Source: Brachybacterium avium
GTDB taxonomy: Bacteria; Actinomycetota; Actinomycetes; Actinomycetales; Dermabacteraceae
Assembly (NCBI RefSeq): GCF_002216795.1
Contig: NZ_CP022316.1
Coordinates: forward strand, 2,757,205 to 2,821,204
DNA length: 64,000 bases
Reading direction: 5' to 3'
The translations under genes were made by a program, and so were the position numbers. This document shows, piece after piece, positions 8,336-63,656 of the stretch; position 1 is the stretch's first letter, and each line of letters opens with the position of its first letter. Below the pieces are notes generated by a model. It ran no database searches. It was not told where the DNA came from and saw only the letters and a list, made by a program, of their open reading frames with translations.

Positions 8336-9448
8336 GTGATGAACGAGATCGAGATCGGCCGCAACAAGCGGGGACGGCGCAGCTACAGCCTGGACGACGT
8401 GGCGGTGGTCCCCTCCCGGCGCACCCGGGACCCGGAGGACGTCTCCACCTCGTGGCAGGTGGACGCCTACCACTTCGACATCCCGATCTTCGCCGCGCCC
8501 ATGGACTCCCTGATGTCGCCCGAGACCGCGATCGCGCTCGGCCGCCACGGCGGGCTCGGCGTGCTGGACCTCGAGGGCCTGTGGACCCGGTACGAGGACC
8601 CCACCCCCCAGTTCGACCGCATCGCCGGCGCCTCCGATGACGAGGTGGTGGACGTGATGCGCTCCGTCTACGCGGAGCCGATCAGGACCGAGCTGATCCG
8701 CGACCGGCTCCAGCAGCTGCGCGACGCCGGGGTCACCGCCGCCGGCTCGCTGTCCCCCCAGCGCACCCAGGAGCACTGGAAGACCGTCGTAGACGCCGGG
8801 GTGGACCTGTTCTTCATCCGCGGCACCACGGTCTCGGCCGAGCACGTCTCCACGGGCCGCGAACCGCTGAACCTCAAGCGGTTCATCTATGAGCTCGACG
8901 TCCCGGTGATCGTCGGCGGCTGCGCCACCTACACCGCCGCCCTGCACCTGATGCGCACCGGTGCGGCCGGAGTGCTGGTCGGCTTCGGCGGTGGCGCCTC
9001 CCAGACCACCGAGGAGACCCTGGGCATCTCCGTGCCGCTGGCCGGCGCGGTGGCCGATGTCGCCGCCGCCCGCCGCGACTACATGGACGAATCCGGTGGC
9101 CGCTACGTGCACGTCATCGCCGACGGCGGCCTGGGTCGTTCCGGCGACCTGGTCAAGGCGATCGCCTGCGGCGCCGACGGGCTGATGGTCGGGGCGGCGC
9201 TCGCCCGGGCCGAAGAAGCCCCGGGGCATGGCCATCACTGGGGCAGCGAGGCCCACCACCCGACGCTCACGCGCGGGCATCGGGTCAGCGTCGGCACGGT
9301 GGCCCCGCTCGAGCAGATCCTCTTCGGTCCCTCGATCGCGGCCGACGGCAGCACGAATCTCGTCGGCGCGCTGCGTCACGCCATGGCGACCACCGGCTAC
9401 CTCGACCTGAAGGAGTTCCAGCGGGTCGATGTCATCGCTCAGCCCTGA
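8336..9448 (+). CDS. guaB3: GuaB3-type IMP dehydrogenase-related protein
   Basis: The protein is about 370 aa and matches the IMPDH barrel (SYSLDDVAVVPSRRTRDPEDV, ALGRHGGLGVLDLEG, VIADGGLGRSGDL) but has no CBS module. At the position of the IMPDH catalytic loop (GxGxGxxCTT) it reads VGFGGGASQTTEETLGISVP, so the nucleophilic Cys is absent. This fits the actinobacterial GuaB3 group, whose reaction is not settled to my knowledge. GTG 8336 or ATG 8339 is the start, placed by the leaderless -10 box. The stop overlaps the next gene by about 20 nt. Calling it a second IMP dehydrogenase would go beyond the sequence. Confidence 0.88.
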   Translation: MMNEIEIGRNKRGRRSYSLDDVAVVPSRRTRDPEDVSTSWQVDAYHFDIPIFAAPMDSLMSPETAIALGRHGGLGVLDLEGLWTRYEDPTPQFDRIAGASDDEVVDVMRSVYAEPIRTELIRDRLQQLRDAGVTAAGSLSPQRTQEHWKTVVDAGVDLFFIRGTTVSAEHVSTGREPLNLKRFIYELDVPVIVGGCATYTAALHLMRTGAAGVLVGFGGGASQTTEETLGISVPLAGAVADVAAARRDYMDESGGRYVHVIADGGLGRSGDLVKAIACGADGLMVGAALARAEEAPGHGHHWGSEAHHPTLTRGHRVSVGTVAPLEQILFGPSIAADGSTNLVGALRHAMATTGYLDLKEFQRVDVIAQP

Positions 9449-10340
9449 TGCCGTCGACGGGGCATCGACCGTGACCGCGGCCGGTCGGGGCAGCAGCACC
9501 GCATCGGGACGCGGCCTGCCGCCCATCGTGATCCTGCTGCTCGGCATGCTCATCGCCGGGGCGTGCCTGCCGCTGCTGTTCGGGTCGTTCTACGCCCCGA
9601 ACCCTCCCCCGGGGGAGATGGTCCGGTACCTGCTGCTCGGACTGCTGGACGGGCGCGGGCCGTTCTTCGTCCAGGACCTGCTGTGGAACCGGTTCGTGCT
9701 GATCGTCGCCGTGCTGCTCGTGCTGGTCCTGGCAGTGCTGCCCTGGTGGGCGGTGCACTCGCAGCGTCGTGGTGGTCCGGGCGGCGGTCACCGCATCGAC
9801 GTATCGTTCGGCGCCGCCGGATCGACGTCCCCCGGCCCCGGCGGGATGCGGGTCACCCGCACGGAGCACCGCTCCTCGCTCACCTTCTCCGATGACGGCC
9901 GGATCCTGGACGAGGAGTGCCCGGACGCTCTGACGATCCAGCGCAGCGTCCCGGAGCTGCGGTCGATGGCCCGGGCGACCGGGATCCCCTGGAACTCGGC
10001 CTTCGAGACCGAGGGCGGTGCGCGCGGCTTCCTCGAGATCCTCAGAGCGCTCAGCACCGCGCCCGTGCGGGTGCGGACCGAGGCGGGGGGCAGCCCCGCC
10101 GAGCAGGACCTCGGCACCGACCCGGCGCGGTCTGCCGGGCAGCCGGATCCCGGTGCCGATCCCGAGCCGTCCGGCGATCCCGCGGAGCGCGCTCCCCTCG
10201 AGGAGGGCGGCTCCGACGGGCACCGCTACTCCACCTCATCCTGGTCGTCGATCTACTCCGGATCCGACTACACCTCCACCACCCGGTACACCGGGGACCG
10301 TTCCGAGGGCCCGGGCGAGGACGAGGAGCAGGACCGATGA
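9429..10340 (+). CDS. Membrane protein with GIPW motif, unknown function
   Basis: The protein is 303 aa. Two hydrophobic segments (about residues 30-55 and 85-107) are followed by a soluble domain containing SVPELRSMARATGIPWNS, then a low-complexity acidic Gly/Pro/Ser-rich tail ending in Ser/Tyr/Thr residues. The GIPW element and the two-helix plan match the adjacent gene at 10337 and the one at 1916. The ATG at 9429 overlaps guaB3 by 20 nt; GTG 9471 is a possible alternative start. It is the middle gene of a guaB3-led operon. Function is not recognised. Confidence 0.7.
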   Translation: MSSLSPDAVDGASTVTAAGRGSSTASGRGLPPIVILLLGMLIAGACLPLLFGSFYAPNPPPGEMVRYLLLGLLDGRGPFFVQDLLWNRFVLIVAVLLVLVLAVLPWWAVHSQRRGGPGGGHRIDVSFGAAGSTSPGPGGMRVTRTEHRSSLTFSDDGRILDEECPDALTIQRSVPELRSMARATGIPWNSAFETEGGARGFLEILRALSTAPVRVRTEAGGSPAEQDLGTDPARSAGQPDPGADPEPSGDPAERAPLEEGGSDGHRYSTSSWSSIYSGSDYTSTTRYTGDRSEGPGEDEEQDR

Positions 10341-10870
10341 CCCTCCACCCCGCATCGCGGACCGGGCCGGGACAGGGGCGACGGCGCCTGGCAGCGCTCA
10401 TCCGCTCGCTGCTCCTGCTCCTGCTCGCCGTCGTGCTCTCGCTGCTGCTGATACTGCAGTGGGCGCAGTGGACCCTGGAGCCGAGGATGGTGCAGTACAT
10501 CGCCTCCTGGCTGCTGCGTCCCGCGTCGGGGTTCCTCTCGCTCACCCTGGTGCTGTGGCTGCTGTTCGTCGTGCCCCGTGCCCTGCGCTTCCTGGGCGGA
10601 GCGCGGCGCAGCGGGGGATCCGCCCCTCAGACGGGGGAGGCGGCGTCCGCCGAGTCGGAACCGGCCGGGTCGCAGGGCACGGACAGCGCGGGTGGGGACG
10701 GGCTTCGCGTCCCCACCGGCACCTTCCGGCAGCTGGATGCGGGCCATCGCCGGGAGATGGCCGCGGCGCTCGGCATCCCGTGGCGGGATGAGCTGATCCA
10801 CGATCACCAGAGCTGGGCGGTCGCCTGTCTCGAGGCCGCGCAGGCACGGGCCGCGACGCTGCGCCGCTGA
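10337..10870 (+). CDS. Membrane protein with GIPW motif, unknown function
   Basis: The protein is 177 aa. A basic N-terminus precedes two hydrophobic helices (LLLLLLAVVLSLLLILQW and FLSLTLVLWLLFVVPRAL), then a Ser/Glu-rich linker and a C-terminal helical segment with EMAAALGIPWRDEL. It looks like a shorter relative of the preceding gene. ATG 10337 overlaps the previous TGA by 4 nt, implying translational coupling. It converges with ackA. Confidence 0.7.
   Translation: MTLHPASRTGPGQGRRRLAALIRSLLLLLLAVVLSLLLILQWAQWTLEPRMVQYIASWLLRPASGFLSLTLVLWLLFVVPRALRFLGGARRSGGSAPQTGEAASAESEPAGSQGTDSAGGDGLRVPTGTFRQLDAGHRREMAAALGIPWRDELIHDHQSWAVACLEAAQARAATLRR

Positions 10871-62150: not shown

Positions 62151-63656
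<1,506 letters not shown>

Follow-up and report, generated by a model that had tools for sequence, protein, structure and literature searches.

The guaB3 gene of Brachybacterium avium encodes a protein of the IMP dehydrogenase (IMPDH) family that carries neither the catalytic Cys nor the C-terminal tail of its enzyme-like relatives, and GuaB3 is retained almost throughout the class Actinomycetes. With moderate confidence, GuaB3 of this kind is read here as a retired IMPDH holding an independent role in which no XMP is formed, probably that of a metabolite-responsive regulator that would act through the barrel face lying opposite the catalytic one. The absence of the Cys from Mycobacterium tuberculosis GuaB3 (Rv3410c) was in print in 2015, according to the accessible part of that report (PMC4594927); what is new is the phylum-wide pattern. 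The gene lies in a stretch of 64,000 nucleotides that was analysed as a whole (the window), and its features are collected in Table 1.

Table 1. Features of the window discussed in the text. Residue numbers are those of the guaB3 product.
Feature	Position	Strand	Basis
guaB2, a canonical IMPDH carrying a CBS pair and the GSICTT loop	4720..6219	+	TIGR01302 578.2 bits, cut-off 481.5; CBS match
guaB3, Cys-less and CBS-less IMPDH-family protein	8339..9448	+	TIGR01304, AlphaFold2, structure match
Opposite-face loop, residues 43-50, gained constraint	8462..8485	+	constraint comparison
Opposite-face loop, residues 187-190, gained constraint	8894..8905	+	constraint comparison
Former catalytic loop, residues 216-234, Gln223 at 9002-9004	8981..9037	+	210-GuaB3 alignment; profile alignment to GuaB2
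Residues 241-260, helix end and opposite-face loop, gained constraint, class-specific GG insertion	9056..9115	+	constraint comparison, alignment
Asp263-Gly264, aligned with the IMPDH DGG motif	9122..9127	+	GuaB3 alignment; profile alignment to GuaB2
Flap (residues 298-341), less constrained within the class	9227..9358	+	constraint comparison
GIPW gene 1, first gene after guaB3; no family match; outside the conserved story	9429..10340	+	family scans, genus search
GIPW gene 2, relatives in 10/36 genomes of the genus	10337..10870	+	genus search
guaB1-type gene, above the GMP reductase model cut-off	62226..63635	+	NF052358 709.9 bits, cut-off 675

The frame at 8336-9448 is open from a GTG at 8336 and spans 370 aa, with the start probably at the ATG at 8339. 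NCBIfam TIGR01304 places its product in GuaB3, whose members have an IMPDH-type barrel and no CBS domains (563.6 bits, cut-off 342.1; model positions 1-363 of 365). It stays far below the cut-offs of the IMP dehydrogenase model TIGR01302 (117 bits, cut-off 481.5) and of the GuaB1-type GMP reductase model NF052358 (59 bits, cut-off 675; the Cys is absent). Pfam scanning returns an IMPDH domain and no CBS domain. The AlphaFold2 model (pLDDT 88.7, pTM 0.90) matches GuaB3 structures with Z scores of 50.6-53.1, and canonical GuaB2, with which it has the barrel in common, at about 36-37. These family, domain and structure matches bear out the IMPDH-like barrel that an earlier note had recognised in the letters of this DNA. 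The missing CBS module to which that note also pointed is real but nothing special here, since having no CBS is characteristic of the GuaB3 family, and the Cys-containing Synechocystis GuaB3 likewise aligns end to end without CBS. In the genome G000 (3.57 Mb, 3 contigs) there are three IMPDH-family genes, guaB2, guaB3 and the guaB1-type gene, all within the window. Minus-strand ORFs sit between guaB2 and guaB3, and a scan for promoters and terminators found none.

At the position of the former nucleophile the loop reads GFGGGASQTTEETLG (window letters GGGASQTTEE), with Gln223 (CAG, 9002-9004) in the Cys column, as the earlier note had seen when it reported GGASQTTEE in place of a catalytic Cys. 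The profile alignment pairs GSICTT of GuaB2 with GAACTT of Cys-containing GuaB3. Among 221 ORF hits, 210 GuaB3 sequences were aligned, leaving out 9 short pieces, one second hit of a genome already included and the window itself (L003). With Nitriliruptoraceae set apart, all sequences from outside the class have the Cys (99/99), against 0/5 from Nitriliruptoraceae and 3/106 from the class; since 103/106 class sequences lack it, its absence is not a matter of chance. Class sequences carry a range of residues at this position (H 64, Q 9, S 9, V 8, D 4, C 3, Y 2, A 2, R 2, T 2, G 1). The five sequences set apart form family f14, which corresponds to Nitriliruptoraceae: the GuaB3 of the named locus L236 is identical to that of an f14 genome, at zero branch length. 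Among the best 80 named loci by score in one scan, of which the loop pattern left 10 unread, Acidimicrobiia are Cys-containing with a tail in 4/4, and loci labelled Actinomycetes comprise 55 without Cys, 4 with Cys (all unclassified MAGs) and 9 unread by the pattern.

The product has two other Cys, at 196 and 278, and these are the only candidates for an alternative Cys reaching the active site, an escape the earlier note had allowed for. C196 is Cys in 74/103 and C278 in 97/103 of the Cys-less class members, and in Cys-containing relatives about as often, so that neither can count as a new nucleophile. The class member G008 lacks Cys altogether across the aligned region.

Cys-containing GuaB3 proteins, from Synechocystis to Acidimicrobiia, end in a C-terminal tail with an EGK motif. 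A strict EGK is found in 98/99 Cys-containing sequences from outside the class (the remaining one has NEGK) and in all 3 from within it, but in 1/103 Cys-less class sequences and 0/5 from Nitriliruptoraceae, where the C-terminal end of G108 was taken from a second contig. Tail and Cys are thus present together or absent together in all but two rows. In HHalign comparisons the EGK tail falls on the C-terminal segment of GuaB2, in inexact register; that it forms part of a monovalent-cation site is only a guess. Other parts of the active site have fared unevenly. Among the 103 Cys-less class members, Asp263 is kept in 97, and Gly264, Trp302, Arg313 and Gly314 are each kept in 103; the TT after the Cys column is mostly retained. 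The Met304 column, aligned by profile with a Met of GuaB2, is not conserved in the class, nor are G232, F307 and N336 of Cys-containing Actinomycetota. In our reading this is the Met of M. smegmatis IMPDH whose backbone touches the IMP base in the part of that account available (PMC11303537). In the column of the phosphate-site Ser, Ser is found in 50, Ala in 33 and Thr in 13 of the 103, and nucleotide binding may therefore have been lost. A new FMN cofactor was considered and rejected, PF01070 matching in 10/10 proteins scanned with and without Cys alike. In Nitriliruptoraceae (L101-L104, L107) Cys-less GuaB3 also lacks the Asp of ADGG (A 4, S 1), a residue mostly retained in the class.

The earlier note had held a normal IMPDH or GMP reductase to be unlikely. 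The variable Cys column, occupied here by Gln223, the loss of the tail and of the Met aligned with a purine contact, and the title of PDB 8p37, a Synechocystis enzyme with Ser at the Cys column described as a catalytically inactive mutant, all agree with it. It is very unlikely that GuaB3 of the window is a normal IMPDH or GMP reductase, and these features argue strongly that it would be unable to form XMP by the covalent Cys route.

Several GuaB3 proteins are known. The C. glutamicum protein (PDB 2qr6, Z 50.6) and M. tuberculosis GuaB3 belong to the same family and fold and likewise have no Cys in the column, for M. tuberculosis by the portion of PMC4594927 that is accessible, although the loop of the window protein differs in its residues from both. 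Synechocystis GuaB3 (PDB 8p4q, Z 53.1, 49% identity) is a CBS-less barrel of the same kind and is of the active cyanobacterial type, with Cys and EGK tail, of which the window protein has neither; S. elongatus GuaB3 is given as an essential IMPDH in the available text (PMC13273366). Closest among enzyme-like relatives are the Cys-containing GuaB3 proteins found outside the class, in Acidimicrobiia and other Actinomycetota; their identity to class members averages about 57%, and all of them have the tail when the NEGK variant is counted (99/99). Canonical GuaB2 (TIGR01302) is represented in the window by a protein with Cys and CBS, both absent from its GuaB3, and in M. tuberculosis GuaB2 is the sole active IMPDH according to the accessible parts of two reports (PMC5159837, PMC3315515). 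In the available part of one source (PMC5504048), a peptide of C. diphtheriae GuaB that is mycothiolated at the active-site Cys is set beside Rv3410c, given as the ortholog of M. tuberculosis in which the Cys is conserved; by sequence that peptide belongs to GuaB2, not GuaB3.

In the phylum at large, GuaB3 is over cut-off in 161/198 genomes drawn, and canonical IMPDH in 38/198. All 22 genomes of this draw in which a Cys-less GuaB3 was read (17 of the class, 5 of f14) have canonical GuaB2 over cut-off. Among the 99 genomes with Cys-containing GuaB3, 7 have a canonical-IMPDH match of at least 473 bits (3 over cut-off), 7 a GuaB1-scale match, G195 a 229-bit partial match, and the other 84 no second IMPDH-scale match, that is, nothing beyond the level of GuaB3 itself. 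GuaB2 is not sufficient for loss of the Cys, since it also occurs beside Cys-containing GuaB3. The base of the class holds a series of steps. GuaB3 of G255 and G423 has the Cys, with no GuaB2 in the genome; that of G259 has the Cys and GuaB2 immediately upstream (GuaB2 is also upstream in its relatives G280 and G295); that of G258 has lost the Cys and kept the tail, with GuaB2 upstream; and the remaining class genomes lack both Cys and tail. It follows that GuaB2 came to lie beside a GuaB3 that was still complete, and that the Cys was probably lost before the tail. Of the Cys-less class loci scored, 27/30 have GuaB2 upstream in the same orientation, against 0/30 Cys-containing loci from outside the class. 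Scoring needed at least 3.4 kb of upstream flank; loci with less numbered 73 in the class, 69 outside it and 5 in f14. By estimate the gap is below 160 nt in 23/28 linked pairs. In Nitriliruptoraceae the two genes are far apart or on different contigs.

Was the Cys lost once or twice? A tree of 82 rows requires two losses when all columns are used, and gives a single Cys-less clade (support 91, unstarred) when loop and tail columns are removed. With more Nitriliruptoraceae rows, a 49-row tree places these with the out-of-class Cys-containing rows (99-100, starred) for both column sets; the trimmed version counts three changes, because the long-branch G284 leaves the Cys-less class group. In AU tests a single Cys-less clade has p 0.088 (0.054 without G284) and a single loss is thus not rejected. 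A one-residue GG insertion, present in 3/3 Cys-containing and 102/103 Cys-less class members and in 0/5 Nitriliruptoraceae, favours independent losses. By these sequence comparisons, two losses, one at the base of the class and one in Nitriliruptoraceae, are likely.

The Cys-less protein has nonetheless been kept. In a draw from the class, GuaB3 is over cut-off in 184/197 genomes and canonical IMPDH in 168. Several of the 13 genomes without GuaB3 over cut-off are fragmentary, and those of family f73 and G254 look like real losses; in G253, G278, G293, G308, G332 (f73) and G254 (f74), GuaB2 is over cut-off and GuaB3 is not, and these are taken as natural losses. Retention extends to family f93, with genomes of 1.2-1.5 Mb (one of 2.2 Mb), where GuaB3 is over cut-off in 15/15 and where all six genomes examined have His in the Cys column and no tail. 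Three of the six (G273, G317, G379) have a CBS-less GuaB2 directly upstream and a GuaB1-scale gene. G348 keeps GuaB3 beside a CBS-less GuaB2 and has no other PF00478 match, hence no GuaB1. In G359 and G389, PF00478 matches a GuaB1-scale gene and GuaB2 is missing. The f93 GuaB2 genes (L343 in G273, L344 in G379, L346 in G317, L345 in G348) have a contiguous IMPDH domain, with no CBS match in the two scanned.

In G273 and G348, guaB3 is closely followed by GuaA. A GuaA query against the full 1,223,088 bp of G359 hits nothing beyond amidotransferase-like fragments (best 63 bits, 34% over 175 aa); the same query recovers GuaA at 79% in L147 of G348. G359 encodes HGPRT, PurA, PurB and a GuaB1 that passes the GMP reductase cut-off, and so looks like a purine salvager; its de novo purine genes were sought by short motifs only, which is no proof of their absence. 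GuaB3 is therefore kept there where GuaA could not turn XMP into GMP and where there is no GuaB2 to serve. Since this complete 1.22-Mb genome without GuaB2 or GuaA keeps a Cys-less GuaB3, GuaB3 is not only a GuaB2 subunit, an argument drawn from one genus (G359 read fully; G389 read partly, with GuaA looked for in the regions around its two genes). Between G359 and G389, dN/dS is 0.047 for GuaB3 and 0.054 for GuaB1, and across the same 67 genomes mean pairwise identity is 0.66 for GuaB3 against 0.74 for the catalytic part of GuaB2. GuaB3 answers to an IMPDH-family pseudoenzyme whose catalytic residue is gone while the gene stays under purifying selection and, judged on its sequences, is not decaying.

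Constraint has moved from one face of the barrel to the other. After thinning to below 85% identity (57 class and 59 Cys-containing sequences), catalytic-face loops have lost constraint in the class (+0.49 bits, 114 residues) and opposite-face loops have gained it (-0.38 bits, 40 residues); the values are +0.03 bits for helices and +0.13 bits for strands. With columns treated as independent, the opposite face differs from the catalytic face at p 5e-7 and from the helices at p 0.003; faces were assigned from strand order in the AlphaFold model rather than from coordinates. The gain is located in residues 43-50, 187-190, 207-211 and 254-258 and adjoining helix ends, hence in 4/8 opposite-face loops, the other four showing little.

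How might such a protein have arisen, and what might it do? The gene derives from a CBS-less GuaB3-type IMP dehydrogenase, the sole IMPDH found in most sampled Actinomycetota from outside the class. Comparison of present sequences shows canonical GuaB2 arriving just upstream of a complete GuaB3 at the class base, and GuaB3 losing its catalytic Cys and its tail afterwards. Purifying selection keeps GuaB3 for a role that, as one complete genome shows, needs neither GuaB2 nor GuaA. Non-catalytic or otherwise acting, the protein would retain its barrel together with some of the nucleotide-site residues (Asp263, Gly264, Trp302, Arg313-Gly314), may respond to a phosphorylated purine or similar metabolite as candidate ligand, and may act on a putative partner through the newly constrained opposite-face surface (residues 43-50, 187-190, 241-260). 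A bolder form of this proposal, that the IMPDH was retired twice, at the actinomycete base and in Nitriliruptoraceae, giving a near-universal purine-nucleotide sensor that signals through its opposite face independently of GuaB2, GuaB1 and GMP synthesis, is possible and is offered tentatively.

The initial favourite was an accessory pseudo-subunit that would join GuaB2 in a complex and modulate its activity or its response to GTP/(p)ppGpp, much as the inactive Pdx1.2 modulates PLP synthase. The close same-strand linkage of the two genes across the class, their common fold and the loss of the Cys after the arrival of GuaB2 all fit. This reading was lowered because of G359 and G389, which keep GuaB3 without GuaB2; it is further weakened by the scattered genes of Nitriliruptoraceae and the minus-strand ORFs between the two genes in the window, and is now thought unlikely. 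Near-universal retention, together with the surviving barrel, Asp263, Gly264, Trp302, Arg313, Gly314 and most of the TT, would equally suit a protein that is still an enzyme and acts on a nucleotide or similar substrate without a covalent Cys adduct. Such a reading is rather doubtful: the catalytic-face loops are the most relaxed parts of the protein, no loop residue has become newly fixed as a nucleophile, and the Pfam FMN_dh model scores the same in rows with and without Cys. A relic heading for loss could account for the eroded catalytic face and for the class lineages without GuaB3, such as f73, but is scarcely credible in view of an open frame kept class-wide, genomes of 1.2-1.5 Mb included, the low dN/dS, a mean pairwise identity of 0.66 against 0.74 for the catalytic part of GuaB2, and the sites at which constraint was gained.

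The two genes that follow guaB3, at 9429-10870, evolve fast, have TM-like stretches and carry a common GIPW motif. The earlier note saw guaB3 at the head of an operon with them and took the pair as a hint of a regulatory or scaffolding function. The arrangement is real in the window, where GIPW gene 1 overlaps guaB3 by 20 nt and is itself overlapped by GIPW gene 2 by 4 nt, and where the GIPW genes occur in other genomes guaB3 precedes them. It is confined to part of the genus, however: only 9-10 of the 36 genomes searched in the genus have the pair, and in 22 genomes searched beyond these it was not found, save for one weak hit each (E 0.006-0.009), so that there is no conserved co-occurrence beyond part of the genus. 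Against a protein found almost class-wide, the pair thus fails as a clue to function, and GuaB3 as a scaffold or regulator of these membrane proteins is very improbable. A regulatory role on other grounds, as in the preferred reading of a retired, independently acting IMPDH, remains possible.

Gene tables in the literature name GuaB3 a probable or putative IMP dehydrogenase. If GuaB3 has been repurposed with an independent role, such labels are wrong, as are models that count it as an IMPDH, and actinomycete purine control has a part that is unstudied. A 2023 paper in Structure reportedly leaves the function of actinobacterial GuaB3 open, and no account of the phylum-wide pattern of Cys loss was found in a literature search that left most subscription papers outside its reach. 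The steps at the base of the class would form a rare record of an enzyme that was replaced and then re-used. A separate peculiarity concerns GuaB2 itself: in G262 (C65:4167-6656) and G111 (C1:436759-439230) it is split near profile position 300-309, in the catalytic-Cys loop, by an insert of intein-like appearance within a single open frame of about 889 aa.
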